A DNA stretch of 44,913 bases from a virus, in the IMG/VR virus record IMGVR_UViG_3300023223_000371, positions 1-44,913 of that record. One strand, 5' to 3'. Below the pieces are notes generated by a model that had not been told where the DNA came from, searched no databases, and saw nothing but the letters and a program-made list of their open reading frames with translations. Positions 7,310-16,899 of this stretch are shown piece after piece (position 1 is the stretch's first letter; each line of letters opens with the position of its first letter). The position numbers were made by a program, and so were the translations under genes.

Positions 7310-10300
7310 CTAGGAAAACAAAGATTGTTCATCAGTTTTCGCTAAATAATCGACACGTTGTTTTTTTACGACACGAAAATTATATCTAAACACCTCTCGT
7401 TTAATGAAATCCTTAAGGTCTTTATGATTTTGATTCTTGATATACTTTTCACTTGTTTCGCCTATGAGAGATTTATAAAAATCTTTTAGTGGTAACGAAT
7501 CAGTGAGTTTATCTAAACACTTCTTAAGAACCTCACTCAAAGTTTCATGTCGGATAATGACGTCTCTGACGTTCTTTCCGTCCAGTTTTTTCCACTTCTT
7601 ATACTCAAAATCTGCTAACATTGGGTCACGATCAGTTACTATCATGTTGAGGATAAGTTTCTTATTGAGATCTAACTTTTTTGCCATAGCCAAAACACCG
7701 GAGGCGTCTCCCGGTTCGATATTGTAAAGAGCTGCACGTATCTTTATAAGTTCGTCAATGCACTCTAAATACGGTTGAACCTGTGTAGGGATCTTTTTGC
7801 TTTTCATCGTCCACACATTGACTGTTTTTACTATAAGGTTCAAACTTTCGTACTGACAGGACTTAGGGAGTACTAAAATGTGTTCGTTGTTGTGAGGCGC
7901 TATTTTATCCCCGTGGGATATTCGATAGTTGTTGACAACATCGTGAGATCTGTAACCTACGTTACGACTGATAACTTGATTAATTAAGTTCTGAAAAATA
8001 AGTTTCTGTGCTCGTTCCGGTTTAATTCCGGTAGCATAAGATATTTCCGCTATCTGTTCGGGTGTCGGATTTGTTATGAGAGAGATAACTCGTGAATTCA
8101 AATAATCATTCGAACCGATAACACGTTTTAGATTGTTGAACTTCGTTAAAGATTTTCCGCTTACGTCACAACCGTTAGTCATTAACGTATAAATATTACT
8201 GTTGACCTGTCCGGCGTATATGGCCCGGGGAGAAATCTCCCGTGTATCTTCCTCATTTCGGAACGGTGCGAACCCTGCACCAAGGTCCGGTGACAATACT
8301 ACGTGAAGGTCATTATCAAGAATAGGTGACATTTTCTTACCATACGTCGTCACATCTTCAAACCCGTTATGTTTTAAAGTTCGTTCAAGGCCATGGTCAG
8401 CATTAATGAAGATTGCCACATGTGACTTTAGAAATTTTACAAAATCGGTCTGACGCTCACGGGAAGGCAAATACGGCGGCGGCATTTCTACTCCGTAAAC
8501 GGTAACGGTGGCTTGATCCAAAAACTTTTCCGGTTCGACAACGTCGATTGGTTCCGCTTCGTCAAAGATTATTTGATGAGTATTAACGATTCCTTGAACT
8601 CCCGGACGTGAACAGATAGTCAAAAACTTGGCATGAGTGATAACTGAAGTGTGTCCGGCCTCAAGTTTCTCTATACGTTTCTTATTCTCTTTAGTGAGTT
8701 GGGATGCTTGTACGGGATAAAATTCTTTTATGTACTCAGGGAACGACTTAATGTACCAGTACCTGCCCCTGCGAATATGTAATGGACCTTTAATTGCGTC
8801 GGGTAAATTCTCGTTAAGTTCAAAAAGTTGTATTTGTGCGACCTCGTACAGTGGATTATACTCGTTATCGTACTTAGTCCTAAGTATTGCAATCGCTTCT
8901 TTGTCACCGGAACAAATTATCGGTATGAGTTCACGATAGGATAAGACTTGATTGATCCTTTTACGGGAAATCTTTTTTAGCAGATCAAGTATTTGTTTGT
9001 TGGATGGTGCGAGATATATTCCTCCGTTCGTTTCTAACAGTTCAACGGCTGAAGTACTTTTACCTGCCCCGGGAGGCGGGTTAAGAAACGCCGCTCCTTT
9101 CGTCATGGAAAGTAGCTCTTTCGTTACTTTCTTTGACTCTCTTGCGGCGTATTCGAATGTTTCTGCCGTAGATTTAACTTTATCGAAGTCTCTTGCGGGA
9201 TAAAAGACTTCCCCACCGCTGTTACGCAAATGGGTTATATCGAGCTTTTTTCCGGCGGCTGTCTCCGCTTCGCTCCTTTGATACCAGTCTCTAGTTATCT
9301 TGTGCCATAGTTGAACACTCGGGGCGATCTTCGCCCCCGTGTTATCCATCTCTGAAATTATGGCGTCGTAGAAGTAAGCGTAATATTGTTCAGGTGTCAA
9401 GTTGTCCCTGTAATATCTTTTAGCTTTTGATACTTCTTGAAAAATTGCTAACTCTCGTTCTCCTGCTTTTGGTGGCCCGTCCGGCCAATGGAACCGATTG
9501 ATACCTTCCGGTAATTCTTCTATCGTATCCGGCAACGGTACAGGCAACTTGAGGTTAACCATTTCGTACCCTGAGATCTCACACTTTACTTTTTCATATT
9601 CTTCAAGTTTGCCGAAGTAATCCACAGGCAAGACGTTCTCCGCTAGTTCGTCCATACCCATGTCGAAAAAATACTTAGCCTCTGTGACAGGCGCACCGGA
9701 GCGATAGCCGTACGGTACGCGGGTGAGTGAGCCCGGATTTCGGGGATCAAGTACTAACGTGCGTCTATCGACCTCAAAAGTCATTTTGCCACGCTTACCG
9801 AAAACACCTTTAAAATCTTTAGCGATCTGTTTTACGGTTCGATCATATAGAGTTCGCCACTCAAGAGAATTAACGAATTTATCAAGCTTGAAAATTATGC
9901 GTATACCACCAGACGACGAACAAATTACGGAAGCATGAGAGCTAATAAACTCCGATTCATTCCACATAGAGTGTATGACATCTCTTGAGTCGGGGTAGTC
10001 TCTCCACTTCGTACGACCATCATGCCCGTACACGTCGATATCAATAGGTATTAGAAAAAACTTATATTCATCTTTGTGATCAAAGTCTGAGTCATTTACA
10101 CGGTAACGGTAAACTTTTGAGTCATGCATTCCGGGCATAAAGTAACAGTCATCTTTCCCTCTGTGCCTGTGCCCAAAAGTAGGTGAAAGGAATTCTTCAA
10201 GTGTTCGGGTAAACATCCCTGTAGCTCTATCGGGTGCGTCGGTGTGATCGTAGCCTGAGCGGTGCACACCGCGCGAGAGTAGTACAGGTGTTTTTTGGTT

Positions 10301-10321
10301 GACAGTCTGACGTTGGGGCAT
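7310..10321 (-). CDS. Primase-like (AEP fold) and SF2 helicase fusion replication protein
   Basis: This 1003-aa protein joins two recognisable parts. Residues about 85-205 resemble an archaeo-eukaryotic primase/polymerase core, with IDIDVYG (Asp94, Asp96), SSSGGIRIIF (135-144) and TLVLDPRNPGSLTRVPYG. The usual His of the sxH motif appears replaced (SGGIR). Residues about 410-820 carry NPPPGAGKST (Walker A), IIFDEAE (Walker B, 585-590) and NQVISRNVGYR, an arginine-finger motif VI, as in origin-binding SF2 helicases. The likely role is origin opening and priming. It is transcribed away from the control region at 10.4 kb by its own promoter, and its 3' end abuts the promoter of the next operon. 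A pure origin-binding helicase with a degenerate primase domain is the alternative. Confidence 0.78.
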   Translation of the reverse strand: MPQRQTVNQKTPVLLSRGVHRSGYDHTDAPDRATGMFTRTLEEFLSPTFGHRHRGKDDCYFMPGMHDSKVYRYRVNDSDFDHKDEYKFFLIPIDIDVYGHDGRTKWRDYPDSRDVIHSMWNESEFISSHASVICSSSGGIRIIFKLDKFVNSLEWRTLYDRTVKQIAKDFKGVFGKRGKMTFEVDRRTLVLDPRNPGSLTRVPYGYRSGAPVTEAKYFFDMGMDELAENVLPVDYFGKLEEYEKVKCEISGYEMVNLKLPVPLPDTIEELPEGINRFHWPDGPPKAGERELAIFQEVSKAKRYYRDNLTPEQYYAYFYDAIISEMDNTGAKIAPSVQLWHKITRDWYQRSEAETAAGKKLDITHLRNSGGEVFYPARDFDKVKSTAETFEYAARESKKVTKELLSMTKGAAFLNPPPGAGKSTSAVELLETNGGIYLAPSNKQILDLLKKISRKRINQVLSYRELIPIICSGDKEAIAILRTKYDNEYNPLYEVAQIQLFELNENLPDAIKGPLHIRRGRYWYIKSFPEYIKEFYPVQASQLTKENKKRIEKLEAGHTSVITHAKFLTICSRPGVQGIVNTHQIIFDEAEPIDVVEPEKFLDQATVTVYGVEMPPPYLPSRERQTDFVKFLKSHVAIFINADHGLERTLKHNGFEDVTTYGKKMSPILDNDLHVVLSPDLGAGFAPFRNEEDTREISPRAIYAGQVNSNIYTLMTNGCDVSGKSLTKFNNLKRVIGSNDYLNSRVISLITNPTPEQIAEISYATGIKPERAQKLIFQNLINQVISRNVGYRSHDVVNNYRISHGDKIAPHNNEHILVLPKSCQYESLNLIVKTVNVWTMKSKKIPTQVQPYLECIDELIKIRAALYNIEPGDASGVLAMAKKLDLNKKLILNMIVTDRDPMLADFEYKKWKKLDGKNVRDVIIRHETLSEVLKKCLDKLTDSLPLKDFYKSLIGETSEKYIKNQNHKDLKDFIKREVFRYNFRVVKKQRVDYLAKTDEQSLFS

Positions 10322-10350
10322 TATAATATTTCCAAGGTTTGATGATGTTG

Positions 10351-10381
10351 ACCCGGAAAGTTGGTGCTTTCCGGGTTTTTT
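10351..10381 (+). terminator. Strong intrinsic terminator in plus orientation, also a 5'-UTR hairpin of the minus gene
   Basis: The arms ACCCGGAAAG (10351-10360) and CTTTCCGGGT (10367-10376) pair perfectly and are followed by a T run to 10381 on the plus strand. In the minus direction it forms a stable hairpin in the leader of the primase-helicase mRNA, without a U run after it. It should stop plus-strand transcripts entering from the left. Confidence 0.8.
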
Positions 10382-10384
10382 ATG

Positions 10385-10424
10385 GTCACATTATTAGCAT
10401 AATTTGTGACACTGCATTTGTCAA
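10385..10424 (-). promoter_or_regulatory. Promoter of the primase-helicase gene with palindromic operator
   Basis: On the minus strand TTGACA (10424-10419), 17 bases, then TATGCT (10401-10396) make a near-consensus sigma70 promoter. The inverted repeat GTCACA-N14-TGTGAC (10385-10410) covers the -10 box, where a bound dimer would block RNA polymerase. The regulator is not identified. Confidence 0.75.
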
Positions 10425-10469: not shown

Positions 10470-10690
10470 GAAGCGTTACATCAGAACAAGTTACAGAATC
10501 ACGTGTATTTTTATCCCCTAAAAACCACAAAGTTACAATTTTGTGCATGAATTACAATTTCGTAAAGTGAATTACAAACGCTTGTATACCACAAAACGTA
10601 TTCTACGGAACCTATATATATAAAACGCGCCTATTTTATACTAAGTATGATTCTATAATTATACATTTTTAAAACCGGCGGATTTTGGCG
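10470..10690. other. Candidate replication origin / divergent control region
   Basis: The 459-base gap between the divergent primase-helicase and replication operons holds no credible gene. It contains TTACA elements at 10476, 10491, 10533, 10552 and 10572 (the last three are TTACAA spaced 19-20 bp), an AAAAACCACAAA motif at 10520, and an AT-rich block CTATATATATAAAA at 10611-10624 followed by GC-rich bases. Repeated short elements next to an AT-rich segment and beside an initiator-type gene is the usual origin layout. Origin function is inferred. Confidence 0.45.
10588..10680 (+). repeat. Noncoding module, copy A
   Basis: It aligns with 27297-27387: ACCACAAA, then TCTACG(G/T)AACCTATATATATAAAA, CGCG, an AT-rich stretch with TATACATTT, then AAAC and GGCG. 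The two copies lie about 160-190 bp upstream of the first genes of the replication operon and the virion operon respectively. Confidence 0.75.
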
Positions 10691-11000: not shown

Positions 11001-11396
11001 ATGTCTAAATCCAAACGATACCAGAAAGAAAAAAACTATTACGACACTCAGACTTTTGAATGTTTGATCCCCCGAGAATTTAACAAAGAACAATTTGTAC
11101 GTGCTCTTGATGCCCTTAACGAGGCGTTTGACGCCTTATACGGAGAAAATCTAATTGACTCAAAAACTCAGTTCAGCGCTGCTCTGGCTAGTATGCGCGA
11201 TGTACCTATACCTATTTGTGATGCAGCCGCAATCTGCCAAACCACGAGACAGTGGTTTAGAAATCTCGAAAGCCAAGGACGAATCAAGCTCATACGAGCT
11301 AAAGACATCGGGGATATCTCAAAAAAATCCGGTCACGGTAGAAAATGTTTCGTTCATCCCACGTACATCACAAAAATACTTAACGGAGATATCTAA
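11001..11396 (+). CDS. Putative helix-turn-helix DNA-binding protein
   Basis: I chose the start giving MSKSKRYQKEKNYYD because GAGGGG lies 7 bases upstream; an in-frame ATG 15 bases earlier would overlap the previous gene and has no such site. The 131-aa product contains IPICDAAAICQTTRQWFRNL then ESQGRIKLIRA, which looks like a winged-helix or MerR/excisionase-type helix-turn-helix in which the second helix reads DNA. The C-terminus is basic with a GHGRKCFVHP segment. It could regulate the promoters in this region or assist replication initiation. Family identity is uncertain. Confidence 0.62.
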   Translation: MSKSKRYQKEKNYYDTQTFECLIPREFNKEQFVRALDALNEAFDALYGENLIDSKTQFSAALASMRDVPIPICDAAAICQTTRQWFRNLESQGRIKLIRAKDIGDISKKSGHGRKCFVHPTYITKILNGDI

Positions 11397-11397
11397 A

Positions 11398-12282
11398 ATG
11401 CCACAAAGACGAGCTTTAATTGATGGTGATATTCTGGTGTACAAAGCGGCATTTGCTGCTGAATTCAGTGTTTACCTTGATTGGGAAGAGGGCCAATATT
11501 ATAAAAAACGTGAGTATGCTCCCGAGAACGTCCGCAAGTCTCTTCAGTGGGTGTCAGTCGCCAATGATCCACAAATCGCTGTAGACGCGCTGAAAAGCAT
11601 GATCAGAGCAACGGTAGTAAACACTAATGCTACTCACATAACAATATTCTTATCACCGGACGAAACTTTCCGTGATAAAATAGCGGTGAGTCATCCTTAT
11701 AAAGGAAACCGTGAGGGCCGGAGTCGTCCGGCACATTACGACCTTGTACGAAATATTCTGATAAATGATTTCGGCGCGAGCATATGCGACAACATCGAAG
11801 CTGATGACGCATTAGGGATCATGCAAACAATGTGCAAGAGCAGAAATGAATCGTCGGTGATATGCTCAATTGATAAAGATTTACTAATGATTCCCGGAGA
11901 CCACTACAACCTTACCAGTCACAAGAATAGTATCGTCTCAAAAACTGCCGGCCAGCAACAATACGCCATGCAATTACTTATGGGAGACTCAACGGACAAC
12001 ATCGTCGGAATTAAAGGGATCGGACCGAAGACAGCCGAAAAACTGTTGAAAGGTTTAGAACCTAAAGACTTTTTGAGTTTGATTAAATCAAAGTACAAAG
12101 ATGAGTTCGGTGACGACTGGGAGAAAAGATTTAAAGAAAATGCAATACTCTTAAAGATTCTTACAAAGCCACTGAAAAGATACTCCAGTATGTACATGGA
12201 TATCACCATGACTGTTACCAGTATTGAGATCTTACTTGAGGGAACTGAGAGTGCTGGAAATGGATTTGAGGCGACACGATGA
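11398..12282 (+). CDS. 5'-3' exonuclease / flap nuclease (PIN/FEN fold)
   Basis: The start MPQRRALIDGDILVYK begins one base after the upstream stop. The frame is open further upstream, but that part overlaps the preceding gene. The 294-aa protein shows the FEN-type acid clusters LIDGDIL, NIEADDALG and SIDKDLLMI, then GDSTDNIVGIKGIGPKTAEK, the DNA-binding helix-hairpin-helix. This is the phage counterpart of the Pol I 5'-nuclease domain and of T7 gp6: it removes RNA primers and flaps and may degrade host DNA. The family A polymerase nearby lacks this domain, so the two genes probably share lagging-strand processing. Confidence 0.92.
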   Translation: MPQRRALIDGDILVYKAAFAAEFSVYLDWEEGQYYKKREYAPENVRKSLQWVSVANDPQIAVDALKSMIRATVVNTNATHITIFLSPDETFRDKIAVSHPYKGNREGRSRPAHYDLVRNILINDFGASICDNIEADDALGIMQTMCKSRNESSVICSIDKDLLMIPGDHYNLTSHKNSIVSKTAGQQQYAMQLLMGDSTDNIVGIKGIGPKTAEKLLKGLEPKDFLSLIKSKYKDEFGDDWEKRFKENAILLKILTKPLKRYSSMYMDITMTVTSIEILLEGTESAGNGFEATR

Positions 12283-12575
12283 GGGTAATATCTAGAATAA
12301 AAAAAGCAAAAAATATATGTAAGACATATGGGGATCACTATAAGTCCGGCAGATACGGAAATGATAAAATAGAAATATTAAATAACCTTCTTCGACTATC
12401 TGATGATGAAAGAACTCCCGATACCGTAGATAAAATTATAGGAAACAGTAGATGGACGGAGTGTATGTGTGATGAATGTGGTTCGCATACTGAAGCTGTC
12501 ATGGAGGTAGGAGAAGCTAACATGTGCTTAGGATGTTTATGTATGGCTTTAGAGACGCTAAAAAATGAAAACTAA
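12279..12575 (+). CDS. Small zinc-site protein (98 aa)
   Basis: The start overlaps the stop of the exonuclease gene (ATGA). The C-terminal half contains CMCDECGSHTE and MCLGCLCMA, two CxxC pairs about 22 residues apart, consistent with one bound zinc. The N-terminal half is basic (ISRIKKAKNICK). No family is recognised; a nucleic-acid-binding or adaptor role is plausible. Confidence 0.68.
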   Translation: MRVISRIKKAKNICKTYGDHYKSGRYGNDKIEILNNLLRLSDDERTPDTVDKIIGNSRWTECMCDECGSHTEAVMEVGEANMCLGCLCMALETLKNEN

Positions 12576-12714
12576 CACCACAATAATAGTCAGACCTGCA
12601 CCACGTCACGGATATTGTACGGAATGTGGTAAAGCAATTGTAACTGTCGATTATGAAACGGGGCACCCTTACGGGACTTGTGATAGTGGACATACGAGAA
12701 GGATAAAATTATGA
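12565..12714 (+). CDS. Very small zinc-ribbon-like protein (49 aa)
   Basis: This short frame overlaps the end of the previous gene by 11 bases and ends in an ATGA overlap with the next gene. The product contains GYCTECGKAI and GTCDSGHTRR, a CxxC followed by C-x3-H, the minimal set for a zinc ribbon. Coupling on both sides and the Cys pattern support it. Confidence 0.65.
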   Translation: MKTNTTIIVRPAPRHGYCTECGKAIVTVDYETGHPYGTCDSGHTRRIKL

Positions 12715-12914
12715 GTGGTCCTACGGATTTTCAACATATAGAAGAACTGGTACGAGTGTACAGCAAAATAAAATCTATAAGTGATCAAGTGTATATGGAT
12801 AATTCCCAATATCGGAGAGTTTTTGAAGAACTTTCAGCTCCTAAGAATAGAAAGGTAATAATAAATGCGGTGAATGAACTGGTAGCCATGCAGGAACTAT
12901 ATAAATCCTTATGA
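12711..12914 (+). CDS. Small hypothetical protein (67 aa)
   Basis: This helical, mildly charged protein (HIEELVRVYSKIKSISDQV) is coupled on both sides by ATGA overlaps. No family is recognised. It sits in a run of tiny genes between the exonuclease and the SSB-like gene. Confidence 0.65.
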   Translation: MSGPTDFQHIEELVRVYSKIKSISDQVYMDNSQYRRVFEELSAPKNRKVIINAVNELVAMQELYKSL

Positions 12915-13117
12915 CCTACTATGAAAAAATAAAAGAACATTTAGATTCAACACATCCTGTAAACCTGCGCATATGTAATGCGAGTTCGTGTGCATGTAAA
13001 GGTTGTTGCGGATCGGTGGACGGTAAACGAATAACTCAGCGGTATTTAGATATGTATTTGGCAGGAGAACTAGGAGAACCAAACAATCCTTGTAAAGTAT
13101 TTAGTAAATATAATTGA
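12911..13117 (+). CDS. Cys-rich small protein (68 aa)
   Basis: The middle carries ICNASSCACKGCCGSVDGKR, five Cys in 14 residues, with one more Cys near the C-terminus (NNPCKVF), which suggests a metal site. It is coupled to the previous gene by ATGA. Its last codons lie inside the first copy of a 28-bp duplication, so the duplication affects the gene end but not the frame. Confidence 0.65.
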   Translation: MTYYEKIKEHLDSTHPVNLRICNASSCACKGCCGSVDGKRITQRYLDMYLAGELGEPNNPCKVFSKYN

Positions 13118-13151
13118 CTAAAACATATTTAGTAAATATAATTGACTAAAA
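13098..13151 (+). repeat. 28-bp tandem duplication that creates a promoter
   Basis: A 26-base sequence (TATTTAGTAAATATAATTG and the following CTAAAA) occurs at 13098-13123 and 13126-13151, a period of 28. Each copy has TATAAT overlapping TTGACT. The duplication places TTGACT of copy 1 exactly 17 bases before TATAAT of copy 2. Confidence 0.92.
13114..13142 (+). promoter_or_regulatory. Near-consensus sigma70 promoter
   Basis: TTGACT (13114-13119), 17 bases, TATAAT (13137-13142). This is the closest match to consensus in the window and exists only because of the tandem duplication. It reads toward the DUF6948-like gene. Confidence 0.78.
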
Positions 13152-13164
13152 GTAAAATAGTAAC

Positions 13165-13192
13165 TTGAACATCTCTAAACGTGACTTATACT
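13165..13192 (+). promoter_or_regulatory. Second promoter upstream of the DUF6948-like gene
   Basis: TTGAAC (13165-13170), 16 bases, TATACT (13187-13192). A short hairpin CCGC-N6-GCGG (13200-13213) and the leader motif CGTAACC (13217-13223) follow before the ATG at 13244. Confidence 0.65.
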
Positions 13193-13243: not shown

Positions 13244-13591
13244 ATGTCCGAAACAAACGAAATCACCATAAACGGTGAAACCTACTTAAAGAAATCCTCA
13301 TTATCGGCGGAGACTGTCCTAACGAACCGCTGTGTTATTCGATGCAGAAACGCGGGGGTTCACGTCGGAGAGATAGTGGACAGAAACGAATTGGTGCTTA
13401 AAGTAAAAAACTCTAATAGAATTTGGAAATGGAGCGGCGCTTTTACATTGTCTGAGGTTGCCATGAACGGGGTAGATCGAAGTAACTCAAGAATTGCCGC
13501 CCTCTTACCAGCGATGGATCTGACAACCAATGATGTATGTGAGGTCATTCCTATTGCTGAAGGTGTTGATCTGTCTGAGACAAAAAAGTGA
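13244..13591 (+). CDS. DUF6948-like protein (115 aa), zero-frame product
   Basis: The middle has the DUF6948 pattern: VIRCRNAGVHVGEI, a strand with LVLKVKNSNRIWKWSGAFTL, SEVAMNGVDRSNSRIAALLP, then VCEVIPIAEG. In the family the corresponding stretch reads like RLWYW-GA-SL-LA-GV. The function is unknown, and the gene is common in phages and mobile elements. The last sense codons ACA AAA AAG before TGA form the heptamer A_AAA_AAG in the correct register for -1 frameshifting. Slippage would continue directly into the next frame, which encodes a (XG)30 tail. Two promoters lie upstream. Family assignment is from pattern recall. Confidence 0.7.
   Translation: MSETNEITINGETYLKKSSLSAETVLTNRCVIRCRNAGVHVGEIVDRNELVLKVKNSNRIWKWSGAFTLSEVAMNGVDRSNSRIAALLPAMDLTTNDVCEVIPIAEGVDLSETKK
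13582..13588 (+). promoter_or_regulatory. Candidate -1 ribosomal frameshift site A_AAA_AAG
   Basis: The zero frame reads ACA AAA AAG TGA. After -1 slippage the next codon is GTG at 13588, in frame with the glycine-rich tail. The same heptamer in the same register is found at 38359-38365 in the tail chaperone, where frameshifting is expected. Confidence 0.6.
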
Positions 13592-13779
13592 GTAACGGCA
13601 ACGGCGACGGCAACGGCTACGGCTACGGCAACGGCTACGGCGACGGCGACGGCGACGGCAACGGCTACGGCTACGGCAACGGCAACGGCAACGGCTACGG
13701 CAGCGGCTACGGCAGCGGCTACGGCAACGGCTACGGCAACGGCTACGGCGACGGCAACGGCAACGGCAACGGCAGTTAA
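13588..13779 (+). CDS. Glycine-rich (XG)30 repeat tail, probably a -1 frameshift extension
   Basis: The frame consists of 30 dipeptides in which every second residue is Gly and the other is Asn (13), Tyr (10), Asp (5) or Ser (2). All Gly codons are GGC and all others end in C, giving a 6-bp tandem repeat that is far more GC rich than the rest of the genome. It could start at GTG 13588, which overlaps the upstream TGA, or be added to the DUF6948-like protein by slippage at A_AAA_AAG. I recall Gly/Tyr/Asp/Ser-rich C-termini on some DUF6948 proteins, which would favour fusion, but this needs checking. The tail would be a flexible, possibly self-associating segment. Confidence 0.62.
   Translation: MSNGNGDGNGYGYGNGYGDGDGDGNGYGYGNGNGNGYGSGYGSGYGNGYGNGYGDGNGNGNGS
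13594..13776 (+). repeat. Hexanucleotide repeat (NNC GGC)n
   Basis: There are thirty uninterrupted units of GGC alternating with AAC, TAC, GAC or AGC. Length change in 6-bp steps preserves the frame, so this is a likely site of copy-number variation between isolates. Confidence 0.93.
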
Positions 13780-13814: not shown

Positions 13815-14657
13815 ATGATTAATTACACCGAAAAACACGAACACAACGCAAAATTCGCAGTAACAAAAAATGCTAACGTAGATGCTGCTGATCAATACTC
13901 TTTACTGATGACTGGTGAAGGTTTCGTATGTTTTAAACCTTTTCTCGATGAAATGAAAGAAAATCGTAAAGGACGTGACGCATATGAGATTTGTGTAGCT
14001 TTCCCCGAGAAGTGTGCAGCTCTTAGAGATATAATGGAAAAAGTTAAAGAGTTTAAAAACTCTGAGTTCCAAAAGAAACGAGGAGCTAACTTGCCTTTTA
14101 AGAAGGGCTCAGACTACATCGACAATAAGATAGAAAAGCTTGAGTTGGAAGGGGCTGACGCGGATGAGATAGCACAGGTTGAACAAAATTACGGAGCAAT
14201 GAGAGGACATATATTTTTCTCAGCAAAAACATATTTCAGCCTTTCACATGAAATGGATAAGAAAACACAACAGCCCATGGATAAACCTCTAGTAAAGCCT
14301 CAGTTGATTGATTGGAACCTCAGACCATGCAACGGCGACGCCGTAAACGGAAAATCTATAGTAAGAGTCCAAGTACATCCATACGCCTATACTAACCCGG
14401 AAAACTTCGGCGTTGCTCTTGGTCTTCGATCCGTTCAGCTTCTCGCCAAAGGGGAGGAATATGGGGGAGGCTCCAACGACTCAGCCGGTGCTTTCGAATC
14501 TACAGGAAACGAAAAGGAAGACGAAGAGGATGCTTCCGCAAGTTTCGCAGGTGATCCGGTAAAGACTGAAGGGAAACCTAAAGAGAAACCTAAAGAGGCC
14601 GAAAAGGCCGGTGAGGTTGAGTTTGATGAGGAAGAGATGTTCTCAGAGACGGACTAA
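13815..14657 (+). CDS. Single-stranded DNA-binding protein, T7 gp2.5-like (DUF2815)
   Basis: This 280-aa protein has the layout of DUF2815/gp2.5-like SSBs: a beta-barrel region with EGFVCFKPFLDEM, a middle strand series GHIFFSAKTYFSLSH, VNGKSIVRVQVHPYAY and FGVALGLRSVQLLAKG. After these comes a long acidic tail from about residue 225 ending VEFDEEEMFSETD. The acidic C-terminus of such proteins contacts polymerase and helicase and is displaced by DNA. It sits just before the family A polymerase gene, as in T7-type modules, and is followed by a hairpin terminator. Confidence 0.85.
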   Translation: MINYTEKHEHNAKFAVTKNANVDAADQYSLLMTGEGFVCFKPFLDEMKENRKGRDAYEICVAFPEKCAALRDIMEKVKEFKNSEFQKKRGANLPFKKGSDYIDNKIEKLELEGADADEIAQVEQNYGAMRGHIFFSAKTYFSLSHEMDKKTQQPMDKPLVKPQLIDWNLRPCNGDAVNGKSIVRVQVHPYAYTNPENFGVALGLRSVQLLAKGEEYGGGSNDSAGAFESTGNEKEDEEDASASFAGDPVKTEGKPKEKPKEAEKAGEVEFDEEEMFSETD

Positions 14658-14663
14658 ATAGAA

Positions 14664-14698
14664 AAACCCCGTAGACATTGCATCTACGGGGGTTTAAG
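14664..14698 (+). terminator. Hairpin terminator after the SSB-like gene
   Basis: AAACCCCGTAGA (14664-14675) pairs with TCTACGGGGGTTT (14683-14695) around a 7-base loop. The tail after the stem has few T residues, so termination may be partial, allowing read-through to the polymerase gene. Confidence 0.75.
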
Positions 14699-14751: not shown

Positions 14752-16899
14752 ATGGCACAGAAAACAAAAATGTCAACGAAGATGAGTATAGACATTGAAA
14801 CCCGCTCGGATATAGACTTAACGAAAGTAGGCGTAGCTGTCTACTCACAACATGAATCAACTGTAATTCTCTGCATCTCTTTTAAGCTTAATAACGAAAA
14901 AACTTACGTAATTAAGCCACGTGACAAACGTGAATATTTGACCCACGATGATTTTAATAAAATGATCCCGCTAAATGATCATTTTCTACAGAAACTTCAA
15001 GACCCCGAAGTAGAACTACACGCATTTAATGAATCGTTTGAGCGATTATTGTTCCGTCATTGCGGGTTCAGAACTTGTGGAATCCCTGACGTACACTACA
15101 CTCGCTGGCACTGTACCATGGTTAGAGCACTTTACTTCAATCTTCCCGCATCACTTAAGACCTGTGCTAAAGCTTTAGGACTTGATCAACAGAAAGACAT
15201 GTCTGGTAGTCGTAACATGCTCGACCTGTGCAAACCTAGGCAAAAGAATTGGGTAACGGAAGCAAAGCCCGAAAAGTACTATACGAGAGAACGCCCGGAG
15301 TGGGAGGAGAAGTACCAAAACCTTTATGAGTATTGCCGTCAAGACGTCGAAGTCGAAGCAGCTATCTCTGATTACCTTGCACCATTGCCGATGCACGAAC
15401 AGAACCTATTTAATCTTGACAAACGCATGAACGGAAACGGCGTATACATCGACGTTGAAGCCATTAAAGCAGCTCAAAAAGTGGAAAAGATCTATAAAGT
15501 TGATCTAGTAAAAAAGTTTAAAGAACGTACAGGCCTTAAACCTACGCAGGGGGTAAAAGTCCGCGAATATTTTAATAATAAGTATTCAGCCGGGCTTAAA
15601 GATATGAAAGCCACAACCATAGAAAAGCTGATGCGTAAGCCTCTAAATCCTGAGTTTGAAAAAGATCTTATAATAAGAAACGAAGCGGCTAAGACATCAC
15701 TGAGTAAACTAAAAAAATATATCATGTGTATGACGTCAGATAAGAAGATACACGGAGCTATACAATTTTATGGTGCGTCAGCTACAGGGAGATTTGCAGG
15801 GAGGCTATTCCAACCGCAAAATTTACCGTCGAGGAACATCTATAAAAACATCGATCAGCTTTTTAGGGATTTAAAGACTTTTTCACCAGAGGATTTTATA
15901 GAAATATACAGAGAAGAGGGTGTTATTAAGGTTTTATCCTCCTGTTTACGTGGTTTTATCATACCACCTCCCGGGGAGGATCTTTTTCAGTTTGACTACT
16001 CAGCTATTGAAGGGCGAGTTATAGCATGGCTAGGGGGTGTTGAAAACGACCTAAAAACGTTTAGAGCCGGATTGTGCGTTTACCGCGAGTTCGCAAAAGT
16101 AGTATTTGGTTTATCACATGAGGAAGCACATGCATTAGATAAAGGCAGTATTCAGAGAGCAATATGTAAAGAGGGGGTATTGAAACTCGGTTATTGTGTT
16201 GGACATGAATCATATGGTAATAAATTATATGAGGACACAAAAGAGATGATCGATGTGAGATGCAAATGTAAAAAAGACACCGAGTATGGGCGAATTCATC
16301 ACACTTGCGAAGCTCACAGAGTTGTCACGCTTTATAGGTCGAGTAGGCCAGGAGTTACTGAGTTATGGGATAAAATGGGACGTGCAGCCATAGCCGCAAT
16401 TAGTACACCTGACAAAGTTTTTAAGGCGGGGATATTCAAATTCATTAAGAAAGATATTTTTCTAATAATGAGATTGCCGAATGGTAGAACCCTAAAATAT
16501 CCCGGTGCGGCAGTAGAATATGTTGATAAATGGGGCAATGGTAATATGTCGCCACAGGTTCATTATTTCGGACATAGAAAAGATAAGAAAAGCACCGAAG
16601 AAATTAAAGATCCCGACTTCACTGTTAACTGGCGAAAGAAACGTATGTATGGGGGGAAATTCTTTCAGAATGCAGCTCAAGCTATTGCTCGTGATATCAT
16701 GTGTGAAGCTATGGAACGTTTAGAGGACACTGGGACGTATAAACTGTCTCTTACAGTACACGATGAGATCGTAGGAACGTTTAAAAAAGGTGACGGATCT
16801 GTTGAAGAAATAGAGAAACTTATGATAATTTCACCGGATTGGGCAAAAGATATACCCCTTGCAGTATCTGGTGGAATCGTAGAACGGTTCTGTAAGTGA
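14752..16899 (+). CDS. polA: Family A DNA polymerase with 3'-5' exonuclease domain
   Basis: This 715-aa protein lacks a 5'-nuclease domain. The N-terminus holds a DnaQ-type exonuclease: SIDIET (Asp14, Glu16), HAFNESFERLL, and YEYCRQDVEVEAA. Polymerase motif A is FDYSAIEGRV (Asp415), motif B is RAICKEGVLKLGY (Arg469, Lys473, Tyr481) and motif C is VHDEIVG (His670, Asp671, Glu672). The residue equivalent to E. coli Phe762 is Leu477, a type known from many environmental phages. A Cys/His cluster (CKCKKD, HHTCEAH) follows motif B and may be a metal-binding insertion in the fingers. It is the replicative polymerase, working with the SSB-like and exonuclease genes upstream. The leader contains CGTAACCATTAACC. 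Confidence 0.95.
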   Translation: MAQKTKMSTKMSIDIETRSDIDLTKVGVAVYSQHESTVILCISFKLNNEKTYVIKPRDKREYLTHDDFNKMIPLNDHFLQKLQDPEVELHAFNESFERLLFRHCGFRTCGIPDVHYTRWHCTMVRALYFNLPASLKTCAKALGLDQQKDMSGSRNMLDLCKPRQKNWVTEAKPEKYYTRERPEWEEKYQNLYEYCRQDVEVEAAISDYLAPLPMHEQNLFNLDKRMNGNGVYIDVEAIKAAQKVEKIYKVDLVKKFKERTGLKPTQGVKVREYFNNKYSAGLKDMKATTIEKLMRKPLNPEFEKDLIIRNEAAKTSLSKLKKYIMCMTSDKKIHGAIQFYGASATGRFAGRLFQPQNLPSRNIYKNIDQLFRDLKTFSPEDFIEIYREEGVIKVLSSCLRGFIIPPPGEDLFQFDYSAIEGRVIAWLGGVENDLKTFRAGLCVYREFAKVVFGLSHEEAHALDKGSIQRAICKEGVLKLGYCVGHESYGNKLYEDTKEMIDVRCKCKKDTEYGRIHHTCEAHRVVTLYRSSRPGVTELWDKMGRAAIAAISTPDKVFKAGIFKFIKKDIFLIMRLPNGRTLKYPGAAVEYVDKWGNGNMSPQVHYFGHRKDKKSTEEIKDPDFTVNWRKKRMYGGKFFQNAAQAIARDIMCEAMERLEDTGTYKLSLTVHDEIVGTFKKGDGSVEEIEKLMIISPDWAKDIPLAVSGGIVERFCK

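Follow-up and report, generated by a model that had tools for sequence, protein, structure and literature searches.

A probable sigma70-type promoter spanning the junction of two tandem repeat copies in a phage genome

Promoters assembled where two DNA copies meet are known from insertion sequences, the minicircle or tandem-dimer junctions of IS2, IS30 and IS911 being strong promoters (PMC3219604, PMC9333248). In such junction promoters (Pjunc) a -35 element closing one copy and a -10 element opening the next are brought 17 bp apart only when two ends meet (IS2, PMC3219604, where the 17-bp spacer is mandatory; IS30, PMC9333248, where work on IS911 is cited as well). Sigma70 promoters are also known to emerge through a few mutations in random or motif-rich DNA and from overlapping boxes (PMC5906472, PMC11661796). 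Such promoter-emergence experiments have centred on point mutations, and the word "duplication" is absent from the main text of both papers. In the literature searched, the coverage of which was limited, we found no clear precedent for promoters created by small duplications.

The window analyzed here comprises the entire record of an uncultured virus, 44,913 bases long (42% G+C). Its ends carry a 144-base direct repeat, and thus the record is very likely a complete tailed-phage genome. Leftward genes, a 1003-residue ORF without a family match and a helicase, run from about 10.3 kb. Rightward genes begin at about 10.8 kb with a 5'-3' exonuclease and small genes, followed by a DUF6948 gene, an Enc34-type single-stranded DNA-binding protein (SSB), a family A DNA polymerase, terminase and structural genes. 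Between the SSB and polymerase genes there is a hairpin, CCCCGTAGACATTGCATCTACGGGG (14667-14691), with a T-run on the minus strand only. Neither an RNA polymerase nor a sigma factor was recognized among the proteins scanned (a subset of the ORFs), and no known RNA families or tRNAs were found within the 44,913-nt genome. The features of the locus are as follows.

12911-13117, plus strand: Cys-rich ORF of 68 aa, its stop within repeat copy 1
13098-13123, plus strand: direct repeat copy 1 (26 bp), which gives the -35 element
13100-13122, no strand: dyad TTTAGT-A-AAT-ATA-ATT-G-ACTAAA, 9/10 arm pairs, copy 1; possible operator
13114-13119, plus strand: candidate -35 element TTGACT (5/6), copy 1
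13126-13151, plus strand: direct repeat copy 2 (26 bp, identical), which gives the -10 element
13128-13150, no strand: identical dyad, copy 2; covers the -10 element and the expected start
13137-13142, plus strand: candidate -10 element TATAAT (6/6), copy 2, 17 bp after the -35 element
13165-13192, plus strand: secondary sigma70-like site TTGAAC-16-TATACT (9/12)
13244-13591, plus strand: DUF6948 gene, the first gene after the promoter
13588-13779, plus strand: ORF of a (NNNGGC)n hexanucleotide array encoding GXG repeats
13815-14657, plus strand: Enc34-type ssDNA-binding protein, the next gene downstream
14752-16899, plus strand: family A DNA polymerase, downstream of the SSB gene

The repeat unit, TATTTAGTAAATATAATTGACTAAAA, is present as two identical 26-bp copies with a period of 28. 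The preliminary description had called this a 28-bp duplication, which is correct for the period. The exact match run is 26 bp and the linker CA (13124-13125) is unrepeated, AG preceding copy 1 and GT following copy 2. Both copies were indeed found to hold TATAAT overlapping TTGACT, the two hexamers sharing one T. No further copy of the unit was found in the 44.9-kb genome at up to three mismatches, none would be expected by chance (0 in shuffles), and outside the hexanucleotide array the repeat is the only exact tandem duplication of the genome. Several other origins for the repeat were rejected. An older degenerate repeat array was discarded as alignment of the flanks to the unit scored no higher than for shuffles, and an iteron origin was discarded as there are only two copies. 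Cumulative GC skew reaches its minimum near 11-12 kb, where gene direction switches, and hence does not mark the repeat site as an origin. A mobile repeat was also rejected, the 23-bp core being unmatched in IMG/VR. In GTDB genomes this core was matched at a single place, orthologous between two Nostoc genomes and preceding an unrelated gene, which we estimate to be about chance level for so AT-rich a 23-mer.

The two copies together provide what neither provides alone. TTGACT of copy 1 and TATAAT of copy 2 form, at the optimal spacing, an 11/12 sigma70-like site, with a -35 element close to TTGACA and a complete -10 element within the usual 16-18 bp spacing. When one copy was deleted in silico the best local site was only 9/12, as expected from the earlier proposal that only the duplication places TTGACT 17 bases before TATAAT. 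The site therefore lies across the repeat junction, and one copy alone does not contain it; other -35/-10 pairings involving either copy gave nothing good. What remains after removal of a copy is the 9/12 site at 13165, some 50 bp past the main promoter. In a scan of both strands of the 44.9-kb genome, weighted by approximate hexamer frequencies, the spanning site ranked second among all sigma70-like sites. Rank 1 was a 12/12 site at 10299 (plus strand) and rank 3 a 10/12 site at 10424 (minus strand), both in the divergent early region, which suggests that the phage relies on consensus host promoters. The sites ranked 5 and 9 (35217 and 17056) directly precede ORF starts. Given this sequence evidence the spanning promoter is probably real, and its transcript would be expected to start near 13149 (an A), sigma70 starts lying 6-8 bp past the -10 element. 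A promoter of the phage type, read by a single-subunit RNA polymerase, was rejected, the motif occurring at one place only and no RNA polymerase having been recognized among the proteins scanned.

The arrangement resembles the insertion sequence junctions in that one copy contributes the -35 element and the next the -10 element, with the 17-bp spacing present only when the copies adjoin. Unlike those junctions, the phage unit is 26-28 bp long and is a fixed tandem repeat without transposase, ORF or inverted terminal ends. Hence, we rejected an insertion sequence junction promoter, as neither insertion sequence ends nor a transposase is present. As in de novo sigma70 promoters, sequences resembling -10 and -35 boxes that were already present, and that overlap here as TATAATTGACT, would be activated by a small change. 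The de novo studies concern point mutations, whereas here a tandem copy would fix the spacing in one step. The near-consensus hexamers, 17-bp spacer, AT-rich upstream sequence and replication genes that follow are those of an ordinary phage internal sigma70 promoter, which differs in that it does not span a direct-repeat junction.

The repeat lies at a 126-bp gap, with tightly overlapping genes before it and a new gene block after it. As the upstream genes (11155-13117) overlap each other and end at the repeat, an internal operon promoter is plausible at this position. The last of them is the Cys-rich ORF, which the promoter had been said to overlap at its end, and in fact its TGA stop (13115-13117) lies inside the copy 1 -35 hexamer. 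The first bases of copy 1 encode the last codons of the ORF (VFSKYN-stop). Two homologues are only 61-62 aa long and end about seven codons earlier, one from Vibrio phage douglas 12A4 (57%), the other from an IMG/VR contig (60%). Hence, the codons read from the repeat seem to be an addition, or at least not conserved.

We consider it likely that the two tandem copies, arising from a small duplication or slippage, form an internal sigma70-type promoter and were kept for that promoter. Host RNA polymerase with its housekeeping sigma factor would begin near 13149 a transcript having a leader of about 95 nt, predicted to be without marked structure, followed by DUF6948, the hexanucleotide-array ORF, SSB and DNA polymerase. 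This would add a second start for the replication genes within the rightward operon. The copies would have arisen where the Cys-rich gene ends in AT-rich DNA, and would have been retained because of the promoter. One point that counts against this reading is the length of the exact run: at 26 bp, it would oblige a plain 28-bp duplication to have changed at its edges or gained a 2-bp filler.

The gene said to follow the site is DUF6948-like, and the Pfam DUF6948 match is strong (E 1.8e-18). Two further points count against the promoter reading: in other phages most DUF6948 genes begin shortly after the ORF before them (median gap 6 bp), and promoters of at least 10/12 are only weakly enriched upstream of them (6/83 versus 25/962, p = 0.03). 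A conserved promoter before DUF6948 genes was therefore rejected. The association of DUF6948 with the array is more surprising than the spanning promoter. An array was found within 500 bp after DUF6948 in 82 of 85 genes (this genome plus relatives), counts that overstate the independent cases because some of the loci are near-duplicates; in control windows from other phage loci the figure was 1/800. Among the related loci alone (L003-L006 and L010-L089) it was 81/84, the array mostly lying within a few dozen bp and the phages being diverse. DUF6948 was not named in the literature searched. In one related locus (L005; MW202478, 1505-2077) the annotated DUF6948 N-terminus is a MAMAMALAM run, the array being upstream and fused to the domain.

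The array had been described as a frameshift tail of DUF6948, which now seems doubtful. Its frame relative to DUF6948 is -1 in 58 genes, +1 in 21 and 0 in 3, and its start codon is usually found overlapping or next to the stop codon of DUF6948 (ATG at -13, -8, -4 or +2). In this genome the start is a GTG at -4, overlapping the stop. Although A AAA AAG directly precedes the DUF6948 stop here, no slippery heptamer is conserved among the DUF6948 loci examined. Given start codons at the DUF6948 stop, the varied frame and the unconserved heptamer, the array is more likely a separate, translationally coupled ORF than the product of programmed frameshifting.

The identity of all 26 bp also counts against the promoter reading, as it exceeds what the promoter needs and could reflect a recent event or some other function of the whole unit. 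One such function would be that of a paired operator, the unit putatively being bound by a regulator from phage or host and the repeat serving regulation, with the promoter lying within. Each copy contains a 23-bp dyad, TTTAGTnAATATAATTnACTAAA, and the two sites, 28 bp apart, would bracket the -35 element and the -10 element plus start. A dyad of nine out of ten pairs was equaled in 37 of 2000 shuffles (p about 0.02) and in 0.2% of genome 26-mers, and the fold of the two-copy strand is more stable than those of shuffles (z -3). However, dyads form easily in AT-rich sequence, and a stricter contiguous score was not significant (184/2000 shuffles, p about 0.09). Moreover, no third site is present in the genome, no regulator was identified and a spacing of 28 bp does not correspond to an integral number of helical turns. 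We regard the paired operator as fairly unlikely.

A foldable dyad at an AT-rich gene end is also where a neutral slippage product might recently have formed, the 11/12 promoter being an accident that adds little. AT-rich DNA is often promoter-like. Shuffled genomes held 1.5 sites of at least 11/12 (spacer 16-18), and therefore such a site alone is not rare. The relevant question is how often a duplication creates one. When every 28-mer elsewhere in the genome was duplicated, an 11/12 plus-strand site appeared in 50 of 44,574 cases (0.11%), and for units of at least 75% A+T in 13 of 2,899 (0.45%), rates that were computed after the site was seen and hence are a guide rather than a formal test. 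In the local single-copy sequence almost only duplications of 27-29 bp yield 11/12. These base rates make a purely incidental promoter unlikely, and both the position before a gene block, which fits use, and the lack of any other such duplication in the genome also argue against passive slippage, which we judge to be improbable. An assembly artefact, in which the second copy would be a short-read error in a metagenome contig, must be weighed as this is an uncultured virus record and the repeat is unconfirmed by a second genome. However, the unit with its flanks (54 bp) fits within reads of the usual length, the linker and flanking bases are not the same for the two copies, which excludes a simple stutter, and a 144-bp terminal repeat at the contig ends is what a complete genome would show. 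This explanation seems very improbable.

How the promoter came about is a more tentative matter. One-step tandem duplication may have set existing -35 and -10 look-alikes 17 bp apart and selection may have kept the result for the higher expression it would give to the DUF6948/hexanucleotide cassette and the replication genes that follow, a sequence of events that we hold to be possible and somewhat short of even odds. The preliminary description had proposed alignment with relatives lacking the duplication. Searches of phage records and IMG/VR with DUF6948, Cys-rich, polymerase and terminase proteins or profiles gave no relative with the same gene neighborhood, only distant homologues in other contexts, although records very near this genome may be missing from these collections. 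No DUF6948 locus besides this genome's own copies had SSB, polymerase or Cys-rich neighbors. Vibrio phage douglas 12A4, which has the same gene family, lacks such a repeat or promoter and is too distant for polarizing. Without a syntenic relative the ancestry cannot be polarized, and thus we infer the single-copy ancestor. Moreover, the 9/12 site at 13165, which is retained in the single-copy version, may have served before, and so "upgrade" fits as well as "birth". Hence, of the earlier claim, which saw here a clear case of a promoter born through tandem duplication, the repeat-built promoter and its unlikelihood as a coincidence stand, whereas "clear example" does not: at present this is one well-formed example without a polarized ancestor. 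If true, it would be a natural single-step route in which a small duplication sets the spacing of two existing boxes and whose geometry is defined, the period less the box offset amounting to 17 bp plus a hexamer.

The divergent early region gave further observations. Within 10299-10382, the 12/12 promoter (TTGACA-17-TATAAT, plus strand) lies across the start codon of the 1003-aa leftward gene, which has its own promoter candidate at 10424 (minus strand). Imperfect 19-bp tandem repeats (TTACAATTTCGTAAAGTGAA-like) at 10533-10577 in the divergent intergenic region are possible operators. A strong intrinsic terminator, also within 10299-10382, lies about 20 nt past the expected start of the 10299 transcript (RNA fold -20.6 kcal/mol, z -5.5). 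The predicted product is an RNA of roughly 45-50 nt antisense to the leader of the 1003-aa gene, a candidate antisense RNA that resembles lambda OOP or plasmid copy-control RNAs.
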